The notes beneath the pieces were generated by a model. It saw only the letters and a program-made list of their open reading frames with translations. It was not told the DNA's origin and searched no databases. The position numbers and the translations under genes were made by a program. This document shows, piece by piece, positions 2,508 to 24,119 of a stretch of DNA of 28,205 nucleotides. Origin of the DNA: a virus. The DNA is taken from IMG/VR virus record IMGVR_UViG_3300035703_000354, positions 1 through 28,205 of that record; one strand, given 5' to 3'. The stretch's first letter is position 1. Every line of letters starts with the position of its first letter.

Positions 2508-2536
2508 TTGACATAATTCTAAAGGCAGTTTATAAC
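2508..2536 (+). promoter_or_regulatory. Near-consensus sigma70-like promoter of uvsW, start codon at +1
   Basis: TTGACA (2508-2513), a 17-base spacer and TATAAC (2531-2536) match consensus at 11 of 12 positions. Six bases follow, then the ATG at 2543, which is where +1 is expected. No Shine-Dalgarno can fit in such a transcript, so uvsW is predicted to be translated from a leaderless mRNA. A perfect 10-base palindrome (TAAGTACTTA, 2489-2498) lies just upstream of the -35. Confidence 0.8.
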
Positions 2537-2542
2537 AATAAC

Positions 2543-4048
2543 ATGAAATGTAAAATAGTTTTAAAAGACGAAATCAATTGTAAAATCGAAGGACTGGAAT
2601 TAACCACTCGTCGAACTCTTGAGAAAAAATTAAAGTTTTTGCTGCCTTATGCATTCCATTCTCCTGCTTACAAGCTAGGCAGATGGGACGGCTGTGTGAG
2701 TTTTTTCAGCACGGGTGGCAATACATTTATCAACTGTTTGCCTTATATCATTCCTGTACTGGACGCTGCTAGATATCAAATCGAGATCGAGGACAACAGA
2801 CATCGATGGGACTTGTCGTTCCCGCAAATAACAGAAGATTACTTCAGTCACAAGGTATGGCCGGCTAAACATCCGGCTGCTGGCGAACCAGTTGTGTTGC
2901 GCGATTATCAAGTGGATATCATTAACCAATTTCTTGCCAATCCGCAGTCCTTGCAAGAGATTGCAACTGGCGCAGGCAAAACACTGATCACCGCTGCACT
3001 TAGTAATTTGGTCGAAATGTCCATTGACATTGACACCAAAGTGCAGCAAAAACTCGCCACAGGCAAAAGCGGTGCCCGCAGTATTGTCATCGTCCCCAAC
3101 AAAGATCTAGTAGTTCAAACAGAAGCAGATTATATTAACTTGGGGTTAGATGTAGGTGTATACTTCGGTGACCGTAAAGATCTCAATCGTACGCACACCA
3201 TCTGCACTTGGCAAAGCCTCAATGTAATCGACAAGCGATTCAAAGACGGCGAAAGTGAATACAGTTTAGCAGATTTTTCTCAAGGCGTAGTGTGTTTGAT
3301 TGTAGATGAAGTGCATCAAGCCAAAGCAGATGTACTCAAGAAGTTGTTGACAGGCGCATTCAGTAACATACCAATTCGTTGGGGGCTGACTGGTACTATT
3401 CCAAAGGATGAATGGGAGAAGCTAACACTTACAGTTAGTCTAGGTGATGTTATAAACAAACTAGCAGCCAGCGAATTACAGGACATGGGTGTTCTTGCAA
3501 GCTGCGACGTTAACATTTTGCAGCTACAAGACAACGTTACTTATGGCAATTACCAAAGCGAATTGACTTATCTCACTACAAACACAGATCGACTCGATTA
3601 TATGGCAACACTTATCAATACTCTGGCGGAGGATGGCAACACATTGGTGCTGGTTGATCGTATTAGTTCTGGAGAAGGATTAATGGAGCGGCTAGGCGCA
3701 GACGCAGTGTTTGTGAACGGTGCAATGAAGTCCAAAAACAGAAAAGAAGAATACGACGACATTGCTGACTCTGACAACAAGATCATCATAGCAACATATG
3801 GTGTAGCAGCGGTGGGCATCAATATTCCAAGGATTTTCAATCTTGTGCTGATCGAACCCGGGAAAAGTTTTGTAAGGGTAATTCAAAGTATTGGCCGGGG
3901 TATTCGCAAAGCTAAAGACAAAGACAGCGTGAGAGTATGGGATATCACTAGCAGTGCAAAGTTCAGTAAACGACACCTGACAGAACGCAAAAAGTTCTAT
4001 ACAGAAGCAAAATATCCTTTCACTGTTACAAAGGTAAACTACAAATAA
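2543..4048 (+). CDS. uvsW: UvsW-type superfamily 2 DNA/RNA helicase
   Basis: The 501-residue length is close to T4 UvsW. In T4 this ATP-dependent helicase unwinds branched DNA and R-loops and switches replication from origin- to recombination-dependent mode. Superfamily 2 motifs appear in order: ATGAGKT (141-147), a VIVPNKDLVVQ block (182-192), DEVH (255-258), GLTGTIP, IATYGVAAVGINIP and QSIGRGIRK. Residues 1-100 form a UvsW-like N-terminal domain with KLGRWDG. The frame is open from an ATG at 2498, but that codon lies upstream of the -35. The near-consensus promoter (2508-2536) instead points to ATG 2543, six bases after the -10. The gene sits directly after a strong terminator and so starts its own unit. 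Confidence 0.95.
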   Translation: MKCKIVLKDEINCKIEGLELTTRRTLEKKLKFLLPYAFHSPAYKLGRWDGCVSFFSTGGNTFINCLPYIIPVLDAARYQIEIEDNRHRWDLSFPQITEDYFSHKVWPAKHPAAGEPVVLRDYQVDIINQFLANPQSLQEIATGAGKTLITAALSNLVEMSIDIDTKVQQKLATGKSGARSIVIVPNKDLVVQTEADYINLGLDVGVYFGDRKDLNRTHTICTWQSLNVIDKRFKDGESEYSLADFSQGVVCLIVDEVHQAKADVLKKLLTGAFSNIPIRWGLTGTIPKDEWEKLTLTVSLGDVINKLAASELQDMGVLASCDVNILQLQDNVTYGNYQSELTYLTTNTDRLDYMATLINTLAEDGNTLVLVDRISSGEGLMERLGADAVFVNGAMKSKNRKEEYDDIADSDNKIIIATYGVAAVGINIPRIFNLVLIEPGKSFVRVIQSIGRGIRKAKDKDSVRVWDITSSAKFSKRHLTERKKFYTEAKYPFTVTKVNYK

Positions 4049-7462: not shown

Positions 7463-7470
7463 AATAAATA
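7463..7470 (+). promoter_or_regulatory. T4-type late promoter for the 7489 gene
   Basis: AATAAATA matches the T4 late consensus TATAAATA at seven of eight positions, with no -35 needed in that class. The predicted start near 7476 gives a 13-base leader beginning at the GGAG ribosome site (7475-7478). Confidence 0.65.
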
Positions 7471-7488: not shown

Positions 7489-8283
7489 ATGATATATCAA
7501 GGCACAGCATACAACTATAATCAGCGAAGTGAGATATTGCTTCCCACTCGCAACGGCACCAGCTATTATGGTCCTCAAAATCACAAACCACTAATAATTT
7601 ACAGCGGTTTAGACTGTGACTTAGAGTTCTTTGTTAGAGACACCAATCGTAAACCTGTTAGTTTGCACAACAAAACGTTTGTTGCTAAAGTTGTTGATAG
7701 GATCTCAGGAAGTGTGCGGTTAACTGAAACTCTTGTTCCCGTGGACTACGACACCGGTAATTTAGTAATGCGTATCTCACAAGATGACAGCTATGGATTA
7801 GATGCCGGCTTGTATGATATCGTTATTACTTATACTGATGCGTCCAACAGAACTTTTGGACTAAACAGCGATCAAAACAACAGAATTAGTTTTGTGCTAA
7901 AAGTCAATGACAATCCATTACCTACACTAAGAGAAAGTGCGGTGCTAAACACATTTACTACTAGCGACACCCGTTATATTACCAGCAGATCACCAAGCAC
8001 CGCAGCGGTGTTCAATCGTGACGGCACCAATACTTGCGCAGTGTACACCACCAACTACAGCGGGGTATTTTATGCACAAGCTACACTAGAATTGAATCCC
8101 ACTGAGTCTGACTGGTTCACTATACAACTTGATCCAGAAAATGCCGAAGACAGTTATACATTTACTTCTGCTAGTGGGGTGACACCTTTCACATGGGATG
8201 GTATGTTTGTGTGGGTGAGATTTTACCATACACCTGCTTTAGGCAATACCGGAACACTTGACAAAGTGCTTTATAGAAACTAA
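7489..8283 (+). CDS. Putative virion structural protein (baseplate or fibre type)
   Basis: The 264-residue protein is beta-rich, with Thr, Ser, Asn and aromatic residues and few helices. Residues 35-145 (LDCDLEFFVRDTNRKPVSLHNKTF, DAGLYDIVITYTDASNRTFGL in pattern) look like the immunoglobulin-like N-terminal domain of baseplate upper proteins that joins a fibre to the baseplate. The C-terminal 70 residues look like a second beta domain with WFTIQLDP and MFVWVRFYHTP. The ATG at 7489 has GGAG (7475-7478) ten bases upstream. An upstream GTG at 7474 would lie before the predicted transcript start. The late promoter supports a virion role. The exact tail component is not identified. Confidence 0.75.
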   Translation: MIYQGTAYNYNQRSEILLPTRNGTSYYGPQNHKPLIIYSGLDCDLEFFVRDTNRKPVSLHNKTFVAKVVDRISGSVRLTETLVPVDYDTGNLVMRISQDDSYGLDAGLYDIVITYTDASNRTFGLNSDQNNRISFVLKVNDNPLPTLRESAVLNTFTTSDTRYITSRSPSTAAVFNRDGTNTCAVYTTNYSGVFYAQATLELNPTESDWFTIQLDPENAEDSYTFTSASGVTPFTWDGMFVWVRFYHTPALGNTGTLDKVLYRN

Positions 8284-8286
8284 TAT
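8258..8286 (+). promoter_or_regulatory. Sigma70-like promoter of the primase gene, start codon at +1
   Basis: TTGACA (8258-8263), 17 bases, then TAATAT (8281-8286), then six bases and the ATG at 8293. The geometry is identical to the uvsW promoter. The promoter is embedded in the last codons of the late structural gene, whose TAA stop (8281-8283) forms half of the -10. No Shine-Dalgarno precedes the ATG, so a leaderless mRNA is predicted. Confidence 0.7.
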
Positions 8287-8292
8287 AAACTA

Positions 8293-9309
8293 ATGATAGT
8301 CTTAGAATTCGTCAAGCAGCATCTGCCTGGCTCTTGGCGTATGACTCCAAGTGGCTGGATCAGTGGAAATTGTCCTATGTGTGCAACACGGGGACACAAG
8401 GCAGACACACGACGGCGTGGCGGAGTAATGTTCAGTGCAGATTCTGTTCAGTACAATTGCTTCAATTGTGGATTCAAAGCAGGATGGTCACCGGGAATCA
8501 AAATCAGCAAAAATCTCAAAGAGTTGCTGGTTATATTTGGAGCAGATCCTGCACAAATACAAAGAGTGAACTTCGAACTACTTAAACAAGATGAACACGA
8601 CAATATAGCAAAGCAATTTATTCCCGAAGAACAAGCACAACTGGCAAAAGTTTCTTGGGAACCAGAACCTCTGCCTGACAATAGTAGACCACTGGATCAA
8701 GTTGACACCAGTGAACTAACTGAATCACAACTAGAAAAGTTTGTGGTAGCATGTGAATATGTGCAGCAACGAGGCTTGGGGTTCTATGATAAATGGCATT
8801 GGTCTAACTTCAAGCATTTTGAAAACAGAGTAATATTGCCGTTTTACTATCAAAACATGATTGTGGGCTACACTGCAAGATGGGTGATGCCAAACCGACA
8901 GCCAGAAATACCCAAATACTATTTGCGCAATCCGCAGAATTTTGTTTACAATTTGGATGCACAAGCCAGTCACAAATACGTTATTGTCACCGAGGGACCA
9001 TTGGATGCGCTACTAGTGGGAGGAGTTGCGCTGAACGGTAATTCCCCTAACACAGTACAATGTACTTTGATTGACCAGTTAAATAAAAAAGTCATACTGG
9101 TACCAGACTTTGACAAAGCAGGGTCGGAAACAATCAGTGCTGCGATCAAACACGGGTGGGCAGTTAGTTTTCCGCCGTGGGAAAACTGCAAGGATGCAGG
9201 CGATGCAGTGGAAAAATACGGCAGATTGTTCGCAGTACGCAGTATCATTGACAGTGCTGAAACTGGCAGCACTAAAATACAACTATTAGCTAAACAGTAT
9301 TGCAAATGA
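8293..9309 (+). CDS. 61: DNA primase, gp61 type
   Basis: The 338-residue protein is a T4 gp61-like DnaG-family primase, which makes RNA primers for lagging-strand synthesis together with the gp41 helicase. The N-terminal zinc ribbon has C27-x2-C30 and C56-x2-C59. A TOPRIM core follows, with VTEGPLDALL (E234, D238) and VILVPDFDKAG (D272, D274) coordinating metal. Length matches T4 gp61 (342). The gene ends in an ATGA overlap with a small ORF that in turn overlaps the helicase gene, so primase and helicase are cotranscribed. The promoter places the ATG at the predicted +1. Confidence 0.93.
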   Translation: MIVLEFVKQHLPGSWRMTPSGWISGNCPMCATRGHKADTRRRGGVMFSADSVQYNCFNCGFKAGWSPGIKISKNLKELLVIFGADPAQIQRVNFELLKQDEHDNIAKQFIPEEQAQLAKVSWEPEPLPDNSRPLDQVDTSELTESQLEKFVVACEYVQQRGLGFYDKWHWSNFKHFENRVILPFYYQNMIVGYTARWVMPNRQPEIPKYYLRNPQNFVYNLDAQASHKYVIVTEGPLDALLVGGVALNGNSPNTVQCTLIDQLNKKVILVPDFDKAGSETISAAIKHGWAVSFPPWENCKDAGDAVEKYGRLFAVRSIIDSAETGSTKIQLLAKQYCK

Positions 9310-11040: not shown

Positions 11041-11161
11041 TGTCATTGATGATGTAATTCTTATTAACAATGAGTCATGCGCTTCTAATCGAAAACTGTT
11101 ACTTGCCATAAGTGCTAATCATCTCTGCTCTAGCATAGATATTTACCTGTATAACCGCTAA
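10997..11161 (+). CDS. Possible small protein in the helicase-late gap
   Basis: The 54-residue ORF starts at ATG 10997, with GGAG eight bases upstream (10985-10988), and ends at a TAA that is also the first three bases of the late-promoter TAAATA. A longer version from GTG 10910 exists but its N-terminal part looks unnatural. The sequence has five cysteines (SLCEPSCKPIICSLVIDD at the start) and a hydrophobic centre. No family is recognised. If this ORF is not real, the whole gap 10910-11172 holds only the inverted repeat and the late promoter. Confidence 0.35.
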   Translation: MSLCEPSCKPIICSLVIDDVILINNESCASNRKLLLAISANHLCSSIDIYLYNR

Positions 11162-11164
11162 ATA
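11157..11164 (+). promoter_or_regulatory. T4-type late promoter for the 11173-13272 operon
   Basis: GCTAAATA carries the TAAATA late core at 11159-11164. The ATG at 11173 is only eight bases further, so the predicted leader is about three bases and no Shine-Dalgarno is present. Confidence 0.6.
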
Positions 11165-11172
11165 GTGTTGCA

Positions 11173-11439
11173 ATGAAGAAAAATACGAGATCCATTTTAG
11201 AAGAAATTAATGCTATGTCTCCCAAGCGAGACAAGCGCCAGCTTGTTGAATCTAACGCACTGCATGTTATGCAAACTGCTATCAATCTAATAGAACTTAT
11301 TGATAAAAGTTTTCCACCTGACGTAGCGGAAGATTTACAAAAGCGACTTATTAATAGTATTCGAACCAAGGATCCCAAAAAATTTATTAGAGGAATACAA
11401 AGAGTTGAAGATCCACGATATCCTTCCGGGGACACATAA
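11173..11439 (+). CDS. Conserved hypothetical, first gene of late NTase-ligase operon
   Basis: This 88-residue helical protein is strongly charged (SPKRDKRQLVESNALHV, LINSIRTKDPKKFIRGI). A long central helix holds an acidic-hydrophobic pattern (IELIDKSFPPDVAEDLQK). It resembles short conserved proteins of marine T4-like phages whose function I do not know. The ATG lies about three bases after the predicted late transcription start. The 3' end overlaps the nucleotidyltransferase gene by 35 bases, implying coupled expression. Possible roles include a virion component or a partner of the two enzymes downstream; nothing in the sequence decides this. Confidence 0.75.
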   Translation: MKKNTRSILEEINAMSPKRDKRQLVESNALHVMQTAINLIELIDKSFPPDVAEDLQKRLINSIRTKDPKKFIRGIQRVEDPRYPSGDT

Positions 11440-13273: not shown

Positions 13274-13281
13274 AGTAAATA
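13274..13281 (+). promoter_or_regulatory. T4-type late promoter with start codon at +1
   Basis: GAGTAAATA ends in the TAAATA core at 13276-13281. Five bases (CTGCT) then separate it from the ATG at 13287, which falls at the start site expected for a T4 late promoter. No Shine-Dalgarno is present. Confidence 0.68.
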
Positions 13282-13286
13282 CTGCT

Positions 13287-13997
13287 ATGGAATTAAACTT
13301 TGTTCGAGATCTAAATGAAAGCACTATGTATCGCAGTCGTCAGCAAGCACAAGCTACTGATGCTCGAGACATGATTGACTTTGCATTTTTAAATTTACTC
13401 ACCCTGCATATACTTTATAATGATTATACCACTGCACCAATAGCACAAGGCTATGCTAAAAGAACAATGCAGTATAGAAATTTTGACAACTATTATCAAA
13501 GTGCAACTGACTTGTATGTGGCACTTAATTCGATAAAAACTAATTCTGTTGCAGGCGGTGCTAATGCAGCCATACAAATGAACAGAGTAAACTTGCCAGA
13601 AGCAAAGATCAAACAATATCTCACACTAATGTCACAGGGTATGCCTGTGCCTAATCCCTCGACTTTTCTAGTACAGTTTGAACGCGGTATGGATATACAA
13701 GACAGTAACTATAGAAGTATTCGTCGATTAGCAGGCAGTTGGCCCACACTAGACAATTTGCAAAAAGGATTAGTGGTTACTAGACTGCTACAGTTTTATA
13801 GAACAAAAGCCATACGTAGCGAACTGTACGGCGCATTAAACAACTTTGCTAAACTAAACAGCTTGGAAATAAAGGGTGTCGACAACGCCGAAGCCAAGTC
13901 TATCAAAAGCAAAGTGGCCACAGTGGCAATGAATACCGCAGCTATTGCCGGAGGCTTTGCAGCGGGCAGAGCATTTGGCAAGTGGCTGGTAAAATAA
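13287..13997 (+). CDS. Late protein with C-terminal hydrophobic helix, probably virion
   Basis: The 236-residue protein is mostly helical, with Gln, Asn, Tyr and Arg residues in the first 150 positions. Residues 207-236 form an alanine-glycine-rich hydrophobic helix (MNTAAIAGGFAAGRAFG), followed by a basic KWLVK end, like a membrane-inserting or capsid-internal segment. No family with known function is recognised; the late promoter and position among virion-type genes suggest a structural or injected protein. It has no Shine-Dalgarno, and the ATG sits at the predicted late +1. The next gene begins nine bases after its stop. Confidence 0.75.
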   Translation: MELNFVRDLNESTMYRSRQQAQATDARDMIDFAFLNLLTLHILYNDYTTAPIAQGYAKRTMQYRNFDNYYQSATDLYVALNSIKTNSVAGGANAAIQMNRVNLPEAKIKQYLTLMSQGMPVPNPSTFLVQFERGMDIQDSNYRSIRRLAGSWPTLDNLQKGLVVTRLLQFYRTKAIRSELYGALNNFAKLNSLEIKGVDNAEAKSIKSKVATVAMNTAAIAGGFAAGRAFGKWLVK

Positions 13998-14429: not shown

Positions 14430-14437
14430 GCTAAATA
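14430..14437 (+). promoter_or_regulatory. T4-type late promoter for the holin-like gene
   Basis: GCTAAATA holds the TAAATA core at 14432-14437. The predicted start near 14443 gives an unusually long leader of about 80 bases before ATG 14523, containing competing hairpins around the ribosome site. Confidence 0.55.
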
Positions 14438-14481
14438 TTATTACAATTTAGGCACATCAACTCAGGCACACATATCAAGGC

Positions 14482-14514
14482 TCCTATCTTAACAAATCAC
14501 TAGAAGTGATAGGA
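14482..14514 (+). promoter_or_regulatory. Ribosome-site-sequestering hairpin with an alternative fold
   Basis: TCCTATC (14482-14488) can pair with GATAGGA (14508-14514), which contains the AGGA ribosome site of the gene at 14523. An alternative hairpin, ATCACT-AGA-AGTGAT (14496-14510), uses the same GAT and would free the AGGA. The two folds exclude each other, which is the layout of a translational switch. Confidence 0.4.
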
Positions 14515-14522
14515 AGTGAATT

Positions 14523-14813: not shown

Positions 14814-14819
14814 TAAATA
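14812..14819 (+). promoter_or_regulatory. T4-type late promoter with start codon at +1
   Basis: AATAAATA (TAAATA at 14814-14819) begins inside the stop codon of the holin-like gene (TAA 14811-14813). Five bases later is ATG 14825, at the predicted +1, with no Shine-Dalgarno. The stretch TAATAAATAC plus WTGCATG is nearly identical to that before the PAAR gene. Confidence 0.72.
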
Positions 14820-14824
14820 CATGC

Positions 14825-15109
14825 ATGAACCTAATTGAATTAAATACCTCCAACGCCATAGTAGAAGCTCAACTGGTTTGGGCACGTTCAGGCAACACTA
14901 TCACTCGTAAGTATCGTTGCACAGTTGGCCAGCGATCAGGAAGACTAGTATCTAATCCAGGACAGTGCAGTGCTCCTATAGATATCAAAAAACGTTTGGT
15001 ACTAGCAAAAACTAAAGCACGTATGGGCACAAGATTACAGAAAAAAGCAAAGTTTACCAAGCGGTTCAATCCAGCTAGTAGGGCTGTGCAGAAGTTGAAC
15101 AAGGTGTAA
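14825..15109 (+). CDS. Small very basic late protein
   Basis: The 94-residue protein is highly basic, with Lys/Arg clusters in KARMGTRLQKKAKFTKRFN and KKRLVLAKTK. An N-terminal strand region (IVEAQLVWARSGNTITRKYRC) is followed by a GRLVSNPGQCSAPIDI segment. I associate this pattern with a conserved family in marine T4-like phages. The charge suggests nucleic acid binding, for example a DNA-associated capsid protein, but no named domain is seen. Its ATG is at the predicted late +1. A run of short genes (15114-16101) follows, spaced 4 to 5 bases apart or overlapping, so they are probably one transcript. Confidence 0.78.
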   Translation: MNLIELNTSNAIVEAQLVWARSGNTITRKYRCTVGQRSGRLVSNPGQCSAPIDIKKRLVLAKTKARMGTRLQKKAKFTKRFNPASRAVQKLNKV

Positions 15110-15594: not shown

Positions 15595-16101
15595 ATGAAC
15601 GAAGACTCAGACATGACAACGATTTTGAGAAAATTGAAATCGCTAGATTCCCATACCCAAACTATACTGCACGAAACCAGTAAGCAATTAGCAGAAGATG
15701 CAGTGCATGATATTGATCTCGCAGTAGCAATTAACCAGACCGTAACCAATTCCAGTGTAACTGTACACAACTACAAGATAGATATTGTTGCAGCCGAATT
15801 TGCAGGTAGAACCAAAGACTTTTACAATATCATTGATTTGTCAGAAAACAAATCGCTATACACTGATATTGCACTATTTGAAACTGCAATGGCAATTGTT
15901 AAAAAACTTATGGTCAATACCATATCAGGCATTGACGAATTGGTTCAACTTGATTTGGATTATTCGAATTCTTTATACGAAGTGTATATACACAAGCATA
16001 ATGCAAAAACATCATTGAATGAAGATATTTCATTGGCAAAAATGGATAATGCTAAACGCAGGGTCTTTGAAGCAAAGCGTAAAATTTTGAAAAGACTATA
16101 A
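15595..16101 (+). CDS. Helical conserved hypothetical late protein
   Basis: The 168-residue protein is almost entirely helical. A central segment (DIALFETAMAIVKKLMVNT) is amphipathic, and the C-terminus is a basic coil (MDNAKRRVFEAKRKILKRL). Middle residues (VHNYKIDIVAAEFAGRTKDFYNIID) form probable strands. I associate the family with marine T4-like phages but no function is known to me. The TAA stop (16099-16101) doubles as the start of a late-promoter TAAATA. Its place just before a scaffold-like acidic protein fits a virion-assembly gene. Confidence 0.72.
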   Translation: MNEDSDMTTILRKLKSLDSHTQTILHETSKQLAEDAVHDIDLAVAINQTVTNSSVTVHNYKIDIVAAEFAGRTKDFYNIIDLSENKSLYTDIALFETAMAIVKKLMVNTISGIDELVQLDLDYSNSLYEVYIHKHNAKTSLNEDISLAKMDNAKRRVFEAKRKILKRL

Positions 16102-16104
16102 ATA
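16097..16104 (+). promoter_or_regulatory. Consensus T4-type late promoter
   Basis: TATAAATA is a perfect match to the T4 late consensus. It overlaps the stop codon of the upstream gene. The predicted start near 16110 gives a 15-base leader with AAGGGAA (16110-16116) nine bases before the ATG at 16125. Confidence 0.82.
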
Positions 16105-16124: not shown

Positions 16125-16964
16125 ATGTATTTAAACGACTTAAACTCAGCAAATCACAGTGTGGATAAGATTAATCGTATCCTAGCTAGTACATTTGGTC
16201 ACAACATTAATTTAGGCGAAATGAGCACCAACGCCTTAACTCGTATGCTCACTACAACAACTGCAAAGATTGCAATTATTAAAGAAAATGATTTGAAGTA
16301 TTGGGAAAATCCACAATACAACAAGTTAAAACTTATAGAACATCAATTGACCACTTATATTAAAGAAGTTGCACCTGCTAGAAAAGATGGCAAACGTGCT
16401 AAAATGAAAGAAAGCATTGTAATGGAACAAGACCTAGATCAAGCAGAAGTGCTGTTAGCAGCCAAGGAAATGGTTGACAAACTACAAAAGATGGTAGAAG
16501 ACGTTGCAGCAATGCAAGTACAAGAACTAATGCCAATCACTGATGCAATGAAGAATCAACTTGGATTTGAAATTGCCGAACAATTCAACACCGCAGCAGA
16601 TGCAGCACTAGGTGGATTACTAGATCAACTAAAATCCGCTAAAGACGCATTGGACAACGCTACGCTACAAGCAAGTGGCCAGCCAACCAATGGTCCTGCG
16701 CCAACAGACATGTCTGACATGAGTGACATCGACGACGATATGGCAGGCCTAGAAGACGATGGGTTTGACGGTGACGATGCAGCCGCTGGTGCAGACAACA
16801 CAGTCGGACGTGAACTAAAAGCAGAGAGTGCTATGGACCGTATGGAAAAGCGAGCACTTGCTGAAAAGCGTGTTCTACTAGCCAAAAAGCGTGTGGTTGA
16901 AGCTGCCCGTGCTAAAGGTTTCTCTGAATCAGCTATTACAAAGTTGATGGCAAAAATCAAATGA
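16125..16964 (+). CDS. Acidic helical virion-assembly protein, scaffold-like
   Basis: The 279-residue protein has three parts. An N-terminal helical region includes NALTRMLTTTTAKIAIIKENDLKYW. A long coiled-coil-like middle (about 95-190) has LLAAKEMVDKLQKMVEDVAAMQVQ in pattern. An Asp-rich linker at about 200-230 (DMSDIDDDMAGLEDD) precedes a basic helical tail (KRALAEKRVLLAKKRV, ending in AITKLMAKIK). Acidic linkers and coiled coils are common in prohead cores and scaffolds, and the family occurs in marine T4-like phages, but the specific role is inferred. It has a perfect late promoter and Shine-Dalgarno, and its stop overlaps the next start as ATGA. Confidence 0.75.
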   Translation: MYLNDLNSANHSVDKINRILASTFGHNINLGEMSTNALTRMLTTTTAKIAIIKENDLKYWENPQYNKLKLIEHQLTTYIKEVAPARKDGKRAKMKESIVMEQDLDQAEVLLAAKEMVDKLQKMVEDVAAMQVQELMPITDAMKNQLGFEIAEQFNTAADAALGGLLDQLKSAKDALDNATLQASGQPTNGPAPTDMSDMSDIDDDMAGLEDDGFDGDDAAAGADNTVGRELKAESAMDRMEKRALAEKRVLLAKKRVVEAARAKGFSESAITKLMAKIK

Positions 16965-17284: not shown

Positions 17285-17898
17285 CATATAGTATTAACAG
17301 TAACCAAGCTAAATCAATTGCCAGAAACGACCTTGTTATCTTTAATGAAATCAATACTCTGATGCAACAAGTTATCGCTGATACAGAGTCGGGATTGTAT
17401 GAAACCACAATCAGTGATGCTACTACTATGACCGAATCCACTCCCGCTATTACACTTACTGGTACCGTAACTAATCCAACTATTACCAATGGGCAGACTT
17501 TCATAATCGCCGGCACTACTATTGTGTTAGGCACCAGCGGCACTAACTTGAACAGCATAATTTCTGATATAAACGACGCAGCGGTCAGCGGTGTAACAGC
17601 TAGTAAAAGCAGTAACCGTTTGGTTGTTACTTACACTGCGCCCGCAGCTACTACTTGGTCAGTCACAGTTGGTGCAGGATCTGCAAACACTGCGCTGGGC
17701 ATACCAAGTGGCACCACTACTGCTACTAATCCTAGCAGTGTGACTTATTTCAACGTTTGGCAAGGAAATTCCACTGATCGTCCAAAAACAGATCAGATGA
17801 ACCAAGTGATTCAGTACTTTGAAAATCTTGGCTACAGTATAGACCGTCAAACCAACACTTCCACTAATAAAACGTTCAAATGGGTTATTGGTTATTGA
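17281..17898 (+). CDS. Putative virion protein with flagellin-IN-like beta insertion
   Basis: The 205-residue protein has a helical N-terminus (residues 1-50). A Thr/Ser/Gly-rich beta region at about 55-140 contains FIIAGTTIVLGTSGTNLNSI, then ISDINDAAVSGVTASKSSNRLVV. That order (a short strand pair, a helix with xIxDIN, then strands ending in LV) resembles the IN motif of flagellin and hook-associated proteins and of some phage tail proteins. The C-terminus returns to a helical FxNLGY segment. It is likely displayed on the virion. The end overlaps the -35 of the exonuclease promoter. The start overlaps the preceding stop as ATGA. Confidence 0.72.
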   Translation: MTYSINSNQAKSIARNDLVIFNEINTLMQQVIADTESGLYETTISDATTMTESTPAITLTGTVTNPTITNGQTFIIAGTTIVLGTSGTNLNSIISDINDAAVSGVTASKSSNRLVVTYTAPAATTWSVTVGAGSANTALGIPSGTTTATNPSSVTYFNVWQGNSTDRPKTDQMNQVIQYFENLGYSIDRQTNTSTNKTFKWVIGY

Positions 17899-17923
17899 CA
17901 TTGTAACACTAGTGCTGTAATGT
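17895..17923 (+). promoter_or_regulatory. Sigma70-like promoter of the exonuclease gene, start codon at +1
   Basis: TTGACA (17895-17900), 17 bases, then TAATGT (17918-17923), six bases and ATG 17930. The spacing is the same as for uvsW and primase. A TGTAAT at 17916-17921 with a 15-base spacer is an alternative -10. An imperfect dyad lies within it: outer arms ACATT (17898-17902) and AATGT (17919-17923) around a perfect CACTAGTG (17907-17914). Confidence 0.6.
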
Positions 17924-17929
17924 GATTAG

Positions 17930-18604
17930 ATGTTAACCATAACCCACCCTTACCCATATCAAGAATTAAAACGCAAATCTATAGACGGTAAACGCCTATA
18001 CGAAAATCCATGGGGAGATCCTGTCCCCAGTGTAACTACTATTCTCGACAAAACAAAACCCAGAGAAAAACGAGAAGCACTCAACAATTGGAAACAACGT
18101 GTGGGCGAAGCAGAAGCCCAGCGTGTTGTTACTGAAGCAGCTAACACTGGGACTTACATGCACGCCATACTAGAGAATTGGGTTAAGAATGAAACCTATT
18201 CCGGCGAAGCAACTGTGCAGTCACGCCTTATGGCCGAGACTGTTATTAAAAATATAGAGCCACACATCACTGAAGTTTGGGGTAGTGAAGTAAATCTTTG
18301 CTACCCCGGATTGTATGCTGGCACCACTGACCTTGTTGGCATGTGGAAAAACAATCCTGCTATCATGGATTTTAAGCAAACAAATAAACCAAAAAAACGT
18401 GAATGGATTGACGACTACTTTATGCAAGCTGCGGCGTATGGGATGGCTCATAATGAACTGTACAAAACCAATATACAACATATTGCAATTTTCATGTGCA
18501 GTAGAGAATGCGAATGGCAGTTGTTTGAAGTTGGCCCCGAAGAGTTCAAACATTGGGAAGAAAAGTGGGCTGCTAGAGTAGAACAGTTCTACAATCTCAA
18601 CTAA
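17930..18604 (+). CDS. PD-(D/E)XK exonuclease, RecB/Cas4-like
   Basis: The 224-residue protein shows the RecB-family nuclease layout. PVPSVTTILD (31-40) is followed by H78 in TGTYMHAILENW, E120, D134 in YAGTTDLVG, D147-x-K149 in IMDFKQTNK, and Q166 with Y170 in FMQAAAYGMAH. These residues coordinate metal and cut DNA. Similar proteins are annotated as exonucleases in marine T4-like phages, probably for host DNA breakdown or recombination. The promoter overlaps the preceding virion gene and places ATG at the predicted +1. The TAA stop is the first part of a late promoter. It is thus an early-type gene inserted in a late region. Confidence 0.9.
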   Translation: MLTITHPYPYQELKRKSIDGKRLYENPWGDPVPSVTTILDKTKPREKREALNNWKQRVGEAEAQRVVTEAANTGTYMHAILENWVKNETYSGEATVQSRLMAETVIKNIEPHITEVWGSEVNLCYPGLYAGTTDLVGMWKNNPAIMDFKQTNKPKKREWIDDYFMQAAAYGMAHNELYKTNIQHIAIFMCSRECEWQLFEVGPEEFKHWEEKWAARVEQFYNLN

Positions 18605-18607
18605 ATA
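18600..18607 (+). promoter_or_regulatory. T4-type late promoter for the fibre-like gene
   Basis: AACTAAATA contains TAAATA at 18602-18607, starting with the exonuclease TAA stop. The predicted start near 18613 leaves a 16-base leader with GAGGA (18616-18620) before ATG 18629. Confidence 0.65.
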
Positions 18608-18628: not shown

Positions 18629-19294
18629 ATGTCAGATACACGCATTAGTAAAATTAAAACAAGACAAGGCGACTTTGATGATCTGCCTATGCTGGACCCA
18701 GGCGAATTTGGTTATGCAAAAGACCAACGCAGATTGTTTATCGGCAACGATTCCGTTAGTGTAGGTACAGGCAACGCTTCCAAAACGCAATTTACTGTGG
18801 ACGCAGATGTTAGCAGTCCGAATGTTATTTCAGTTTATATTAACGGCACAGCCGTTAACCCATCCACATACAGTATTGTGGGAACTACACTTACATTCAC
18901 TTCGGCCCCAGCTAGCGGCGCAGTTATCACTATGCGATTCAACAGTGAAATAGAAATCGACAAAGACATCACCCGTCCTAGCAGTTTGAGTTTAGCAGCA
19001 GGCGGAACCAACGCTGCAACAGGTTTTCAATTTGATACTACACAGTATAACGTGTGTATTATCGACTATACACTAGAAAGCACAGCAGGCGTTCGTGTTG
19101 GTCGATTGAGGTTTGCGATAGATCAAAGCAATAGTGCAACTGCGCTAGATGACAACTACACTGAAACAGCCGCAGTTGCAGTGGTGTTTAGTTTGAATAC
19201 TGCAACAGCTAATACACTAAAGCTAATGTACACTGATACTGCATCATTGATCACCAAATTCAAATACACATATCAACTTTGGAACAGCAATTAA
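18629..19294 (+). CDS. Tail fibre-like structural protein
   Basis: The 221-residue protein begins with TRISKIKTRQGDFDDLPMLD, then PGEFGYAKDQRRLFIGND. The LxxGEFGYAxDxxRLFIG pattern is the N-terminal attachment domain of many phage fibre and tropism-determinant proteins. A beta-rich domain follows (VISVYINGTAVNPSTYSIVG, TLTFTSAPASGAVITMRF). The C-terminal 90 residues (NVCIIDYTLESTAGVRVGRL, then a threonine-rich strand region) resemble fibre tip domains. It probably attaches to the tail or baseplate and may contact host receptors or another fibre subunit. GAGGA precedes the start by nine bases. Its end overlaps the next gene by 16 bases. Confidence 0.82.
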   Translation: MSDTRISKIKTRQGDFDDLPMLDPGEFGYAKDQRRLFIGNDSVSVGTGNASKTQFTVDADVSSPNVISVYINGTAVNPSTYSIVGTTLTFTSAPASGAVITMRFNSEIEIDKDITRPSSLSLAAGGTNAATGFQFDTTQYNVCIIDYTLESTAGVRVGRLRFAIDQSNSATALDDNYTETAAVAVVFSLNTATANTLKLMYTDTASLITKFKYTYQLWNSN

Positions 19295-23808: not shown

Positions 23809-23814
23809 TAAATA
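23807..23814 (+). promoter_or_regulatory. T4-type late promoter of the PAAR gene, start codon at +1
   Basis: AATAAATA, with TAAATA at 23809-23814 and the preceding stop in its upstream part. Five bases later is ATG 23820, at the expected +1, with no Shine-Dalgarno. TAATAAATAC plus WTGCATG repeats the arrangement at 14811-14827. Confidence 0.72.
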
Positions 23815-23819
23815 CTTGC

Positions 23820-24119
23820 ATGGCAGGTTTTGTACACAGAGAAGGCGATGCAAGAAGCTGCGGAGCAACTACTAAAGCTTCTTGCGCAACCGTCAGAATT
23901 AATGGAAAATTCATAAGCATAGAAGGCGATACCAACAGTCACGGCGGCGGCGCATTGCGAGCCACTCAAACTGCGGGCAAAGTCAGAGTTAATGGTCGTC
24001 CAGTTATTATACTCAATGACCCAGCAGCACCAGACAAATTGTGCCCACCATTGGGCGGCGCACATTGCAACCCCAAAGCATCTAGTGCTAGTCCAAACGT
24101 AAGAGCAGGCGGCGGTTAA
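23820..24119 (+). CDS. PAAR-type tail spike tip protein
   Basis: The 99-residue protein carries the PAAR layout: GFVHREGDARSCGA at the N-terminus, then VRINGKFISIEGD, SHGGGALRAT, VRVNGRPVIILND and a C-terminal LCPPLGGAHCN. The spaced HxxGD, His and Cys residues would bind the metal that shapes the sharp tip. PAAR proteins cap the baseplate central spike and pierce the host envelope; T4 gp5.4 is the counterpart. Length is typical. Its start is at the predicted late +1, and its stop (TAA 24117-24119) overlaps the next ATG by one base. Confidence 0.88.
   Translation: MAGFVHREGDARSCGATTKASCATVRINGKFISIEGDTNSHGGGALRATQTAGKVRVNGRPVIILNDPAAPDKLCPPLGGAHCNPKASSASPNVRAGGG

Follow-up and report, generated by a model that had tools for sequence, protein, structure and literature searches.

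Late Promoters and Their Genes in the Window

The stretch of DNA analyzed here, called the window throughout, is a T4-like phage fragment of 28,205 bp from IMG/VR with genes for ribonucleotide reductase, virion structural proteins, and a PAAR protein. One of its proteins matches cyanophages weakly, and nucleotide comparison with a phage collection gave trivial matches only and no close isolate. Three genes of the window begin exactly five bases after the late promoter core TAAATA (d=5, where d counts the bases that separate the ATG from the last A of this core). The first core (13276..13281, + strand) is joined by the spacer CTGCT to the ATG at 13287 of a predicted leaderless late gene (13287..13997, + strand), whose 236-aa product has no PHROG match. 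The second (14814..14819, + strand) comes immediately after the TAA stop codon of the preceding gene and is followed by the spacer CATGC and the ATG at 14825 of another predicted leaderless late gene (14825..15109, + strand; 94 aa, no function assigned). The third (23809..23814, + strand; spacer CTTGC) stands before the ATG at 23820 of a predicted leaderless late gene for a PAAR-type protein (23820..24119, + strand; PHROG 281). At a fourth core (11159..11164, + strand), the spacer GTGTTGCA extends d to 8, and the late virion structural gene that starts at 11173 (11173..11439, + strand; PHROG 11854) probably has a leader of 3 nt. The bases preceding TAAATA at these four sites are G, A, A, and C.

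Three further late promoters on the + strand precede genes whose leaders carry a Shine-Dalgarno (SD) sequence. Their cores lie at 7465..7470 (gene 7489-8283; d=18, GGAG), 16099..16104 (gene 16125-16964; d=20, AAGGGA), and 18602..18607 (gene 18629-19294; d=21, GAGG), and the leaders measure 13, 15, and 16 nt, respectively, when +1 is placed at d=5. The original prediction had given the positions and gaps of the four short-spaced cores, and had described these three genes as having leaders of 13-16 nt with ribosome sites; on re-checking, all proved exact.

TAAATA occurs 13 times on the + strand and twice on the - strand of the window, and this total of 15 is below the 25 expected from shuffled sequences, so the sites are not merely abundant. 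As a separate observation, this scarcity, together with the location of 13 of the 15 sites on the coding strand, suggests that stray late promoters are selected against. Comparison with relatives confirms the starts: orthologues use the same ATG or, for 13287, an upstream d=5 ATG about 26 codons away. In the latter case, the proteins of the relatives are longer by about 26 residues at the N terminus, and their ATG again lies at d=5.

Distances between TAAATA and Start Codons

The histogram of TAAATA-to-ATG distances proposed with the original prediction was run over relatives of the window (viral contigs L002-L222, about 120 contigs), in which dereplication left 1,152 TAAATA sites. It is not flat. 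An ATG is found at d=5 for 146 sites, whereas d=4, d=6, and d=8 account for 13, 17, and 28 sites, respectively, and permuted hexamers produced no independent peak in the same relatives. When starts of ORFs of at least 60 aa are counted, there are 130 at d=5, 18 at d=8, few at other distances from 6 to 16, and a wide rise across d=17-30. SD complementarity follows these distances closely, going from 1% of cases at d=5 and 0% at d=8 to 96% at d=18.

The peak does not depend on repeated sampling of the same genes. With each gene family counted once across ten long contigs and the window, 46 families lie at d=5, while other short distances average 3.5 (Poisson 6e-35), and the same family-level count in phage HTVC008M gives 12 versus 1.0. 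A motif-free scan of positional hexamers upstream of ATG codons ranks TAAATA at d=5 above all others, SD motifs included (67 versus 4.2 expected), while its one-mismatch variants are not enriched at this distance (14 versus 21.8 expected). Chance was dismissed on the strength of the histogram, the permuted hexamers, the one-mismatch variants, and the family-level counts. The start codon at d=5 is nearly always AUG, with 46 ATG families against nine GTG or TTG families. Leaderless GTG and TTG starts were rejected as a class, their excess over a background of about 3.2 families being merely weak.

Orthologues That Switch between Two Layouts

Distances were also compared among orthologues of individual window genes. 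Under an assignment with a mild bias toward any ATG that is in frame at d=5 or d=8, a bias that affects neither the 1,152-site histogram nor the motif-free scan, d=5 is found in 35 of 44 dereplicated orthologues of 13287, in 34 of 39 of 23820, and in 32 of 46 of 14825, where four others are at d=8. By the same assignment, 17 of the 30 orthologues of 11173 have d=8 and one has d=5, with the remainder at d=15-27. Orthologues of 7489 range over d=16-25 (SD in 100%), those of 16125 over d=17-32, and those of 18629 mainly over d=18-33 with a single member at d=5. Leaderless families (13287, 14825, and 23820) hold d constant, whereas SD families (7489, 16125, and 18629) drift.

Orthologues alternate between d=5 or d=8 without an SD and d of at least 15, mainly with one, and members that depart from d=5 or d=8 have mostly gained a longer leader, often with an SD. 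For example, TAAATACATGC-ATG at the 14825 gene of the window corresponds to TAAATATATGCAAGGAGTTTTTTTCT-ATG at its L145 orthologue (64% identity). The geometry, its conservation, the absence of an SD, the preference for AUG, and the two-state switching of orthologues can all be read directly from the sequences.

Predicted Position of Transcription Initiation

Late promoters of phage T4 are a textbook system. Their octamer TATAAATA occupies positions -13 to -6 (PMC1524935), so a spacing of d=5 corresponds to +1. A pyrimidine is found at -1 in 98% of d=5 sites, and an A stands before TAAATA in 75% of them. In the d=8 class, 89% of sites have a T at d=4 and 100% have a purine at d=5, which indicates that this signature tracks the promoter and not the ATG. 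Genes of the d=8 class thus probably start transcription at d=5 as well, leaving a 3-nt leader. The same trend (pyrimidine at d=4, purine at d=5) is seen at T4 WATAAATA sites. At leadered promoters of the relatives the initiator is less clear, with A or T at both d=4 and d=5, and +1 may therefore shift by one base. Taken with the T4 geometry, the pyrimidine/purine signature would place the RNA 5' end of d=5 genes on the A of the start codon.

In HTVC008M, a divergent pair of head genes leaves no space for leaders. The DNA end protector gene (- strand, start at 18916) and the head closure gene (+ strand, start at 18943) have 26 bp between their start codons, TAAATA is at d=5 on each strand, the promoters overlap, and the annotated starts agree (positions 18916-18943 correspond to L335:4417-4444). 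Any leader would have to come from within the neighboring gene. The region of the T4 head-closure orthologue also has divergent TATAAATA elements, but SD leaders are present there.

The original prediction that some late promoters place the ATG at +1 without an SD is strongly supported, on comparative grounds, by the one-base-wide peak in 46 families, the absence of SDs, the pyrimidine at -1 in 98% of sites, and the orthologues with two layouts. Its proposal that two modes of translation coexist within late expression finds comparative support in the occurrence of SD-leadered late promoters beside zero-leader ones.

Sigma70-Type Promoters with the Same Geometry

The positional hexamer scan also revealed TTGACA at d=29 (26 versus 1.1 expected). 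These sites share the layout TTGACA-N17-TAnnnT-N6-ATG, in which the -10 element occupies -12 to -7, a pyrimidine is at -1 in 25 of 32 cases, and an SD is present in 0%. The main families are 2543, 8293, and 17930, and the window has the layout at all three. At 2508..2536 (+ strand), TTGACA-N17-TATAAC places at +1 the ATG of a gene (2543 to 4048) identified as a helicase by Pfam ResIII/Helicase_C, an arrangement common to six genomes including the window. The longest ORF begins at 2498, upstream of this conserved promoter, and the true helicase start is most likely 2543 rather than 2498. The second promoter (8258..8286, + strand; TTGACA-N17-TAATAT) sets the ATG at 8293 (gene to 9309) at +1, and every one of 26 dereplicated orthologues has TTGAC at the identical position. 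The 338-aa product has a CxxC motif and was judged primase-like by eye only. The third (17895..17923, + strand; TTGACA-N17-TAATGT) does the same for the ATG at 17930 (gene to 18604), whose product was judged nuclease-like, again by eye only. Of its 64 orthologues, 41 have TTGAC within 1 nt of the window position.

A sharp TTGACA peak is missing from T4 and KVP40. Sigma70-type leaderless promoters in pelagiphages were considered and dismissed, as no sharp TTGACA peak was found there either. From their promoter type, the sigma70-type promoters described here would serve early genes. The original prediction had framed the leaderless mode as belonging to late expression, which is too narrow in scope, since sigma70-type promoters share the ATG-at-+1 geometry. 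That two unrelated promoter types converge on an ATG at +1 is an argument for selection on the zero leader as such.

Distribution among T4-Like Phages

The arrangement TAAATA-N5-ATG occurs 6-10 times in each long relative contig, 12 times in HTVC008M, and in six ORFs of Mosig and three of the methylophage Melnitz (ORFs of at least 60 aa). The corresponding counts are three in T4, one in KVP40, none in Syn9, and one in S-PM2, and the positional hexamer scan recovered no TAAATA d=5 class from either T4 with KVP40 or Syn9 with S-PM2. T4 was rejected as a carrier of the class because its three cases are not WATAAATA late promoters. No gene is at d=5 or d=8 behind a T4 WATAAATA site, and all genes found there have d of 13 or more.

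The DNA end protector gene is at d=5 in HTVC008M, Mosig, and Melnitz, even though the proteins are only about 39% identical. A gp55-type late sigma factor is present in these three isolates and in one distant relative (G006); profile search found none in the nearer contigs, which are incomplete. The TAAATA core precedes late virion genes, with matches to head closure, neck adaptor, sheath, tube, PAAR, and hub proteins. A study of pelagimyophages reports no success in predicting their late promoters, and leaderless genes go unmentioned in it (PMC7029224). A literature search, with most subscription papers outside its reach, found no published account of leaderless late genes in T4-like phages, and the zero-leader layout is apparently unreported for this virus group.

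Probable Leaderless Messages and Alternative Explanations

Very probably, these promoters yield leaderless mRNAs, because a TAAATA that ends five bases before the ATG would put +1 on the A of the start codon. A T4-type late element, TAAATA or more usually ATAAATA, would direct RNA polymerase to begin on this A in an initiator context with a pyrimidine at -1 before the A at +1, and the ribosome would then initiate at the 5'-terminal AUG without SD pairing. The d=8 genes would form a sister class with the same promoter start position, three bases ahead of the AUG. Other late genes of the same genomes would retain a leader of about 12 nt or longer with an SD, and a few other genes, such as the helicase, would reach the same ATG-at-+1 layout by way of sigma70-type promoters. 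Leaderless translation of the d=5 genes is accordingly a prediction from promoter geometry.

Most d=5 genes closely trail a co-directional gene, with 4-25 nt in most cases from stop codon to ATG, and read-through transcripts are therefore probably made too. It is conceivable, though unlikely, that such longer transcripts started upstream, with translation coupled to that of the preceding gene, are what matters, and that TAAATA near the ATG is incidental or forced by tight packing. The TAA within TAAATA is indeed often the stop codon of the preceding gene. Coupling, however, does not call for TAAATA at a single fixed spacing or for a pyrimidine at -1, and the HTVC008M pair of DNA end protector and head closure genes is divergent, with 26 bp between starts. 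Moreover, sigma70 promoters arrive at the same +1 with a different element, and T4, KVP40, Syn9, and S-PM2 are also compact yet lack the class.

AU-rich leaders are known to aid initiation in some bacteria, and TAAATA before the ATG might be a translation signal of this kind instead of a promoter. This is very improbable given that only the exact TAAATA is enriched, one-mismatch variants not being so, and that the same element, often preceded by A, lies 16-34 bases upstream of SD genes including those for sheath and tube. Most loci come from four families, but chance or inheritance of TAAATA by a few conserved genes through common descent is scarcely credible when the peak persists in 46 families counted once each, the separate lineage of HTVC008M has its own set of 12, and adjacent distances remain at background.

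Proteins Encoded by the Predicted Leaderless Genes

If the d=5 genes are leaderless as proposed, the identities of their products may hint at a purpose. In HTVC008M, leaderless genes include those for the DNA end protector, head closure, tail tube cap, tail completion, tape measure, and wedge proteins, and the neck adaptor gene is at d=8; SD leaders are found at the genes for capsid, sheath, and tube. In Mosig and Melnitz, the SD energies of these last three genes run from -8.4 to -10. The families matched by leaderless or d=8 genes of G001 and G005 are those of neck adaptor, head closure, sheath stabilizer, and hub lysozyme, and sheath and tube there have SDs of about -9. In T4 virions, proteins of the leaderless or d=8 group are present in low copy, and capsid, sheath, and tube proteins in high copy.

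Among the named proteins, to which this partition applies, leaderless virion genes mainly encode low-copy parts, and sheath, tube, and capsid genes have the strongest SDs. As a more speculative hypothesis on purpose, zero leaders might give low, economical expression of low-copy proteins and SD leaders might serve bulk virion parts. The original prediction had suggested that the two modes set protein levels or timing; levels fit this pattern, and timing is unsupported. A broader possibility, offered tentatively and with considerable doubt, is that in a clade of T4-like phages leaderless translation is a programmed means of setting virion stoichiometry. Low-copy assembly parts, together with some enzymes of replication, would come from 5'-AUG messages and bulk parts from SD leaders, with the phage perhaps altering the ribosome or initiation factors during infection to favor either.

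Relation to Known Systems

The promoters described here resemble T4 late promoters (gp55/gp33/gp45; TATAAATA at -13 to -6) in their TAAATA core, late virion genes, inferred start five bases on, and purine at +1. They differ in that T4 genes behind WATAAATA have d of at least 13, whereas here a large class has no leader. The cI mRNA of phage lambda is leaderless and is likewise a phage message that starts at its AUG, but it represents one repressor gene versus the many virion and some non-virion genes here. Leaderless initiation in lambda has been noted alongside bacterial leaderless genes, in which a -10-like element lies about 10-12 bp from the start codon (PMC3160421). Both the d=5 late genes and the sigma70-type genes have a -10-type element at about this distance. 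TA-led leaderless genes of Actinobacteria and Deinococcus-Thermus share this element and the absence of an SD (PMC3160421), whereas the present cases are from T4-like phages, use phage late-type and sigma70-type promoters, and occur beside SD-leadered genes. The pelagimyophages HTVC008M and Mosig and the methylophage Melnitz share TAAATA-N5-ATG, in 12, 6, and 3 ORFs, respectively; the pelagimyophage study neither succeeded in predicting late promoters nor mentioned leaderless genes (PMC7029224).

If the class is true in marine T4-like phages, it would represent systematic 5'-AUG initiation during lytic infection. It would also offer a natural comparison of one promoter with and without a leader, at times in orthologous genes, and the cultured phage HTVC008M makes a direct test possible. 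The zero-leader layout may be one reason that the late promoters of pelagimyophages escaped prediction, and starts in such genomes may be set wrongly by gene callers that look for an SD.

Additional Observations

Two annotated proteins are possible means of altering host translation: a RimK-like ATP-grasp protein in Melnitz (L338, 82-1131) and a translation initiation factor in Atu_ph07 (L229, 244-747). Within the window, the intergenic region 14432-14522 has a TAAATA about 85 nt ahead of gene 14523. The leader of this gene holds a repeated GGCACA-type motif, found in the same place in L007 and L002, and is possibly structured or regulated. Finally, the products of 12181, 13287, 15114, 16125, and 16961 have in common an N-terminal motif like LNES, LNDLN, or DILE, which is perhaps a signal for prohead targeting or protease cleavage.
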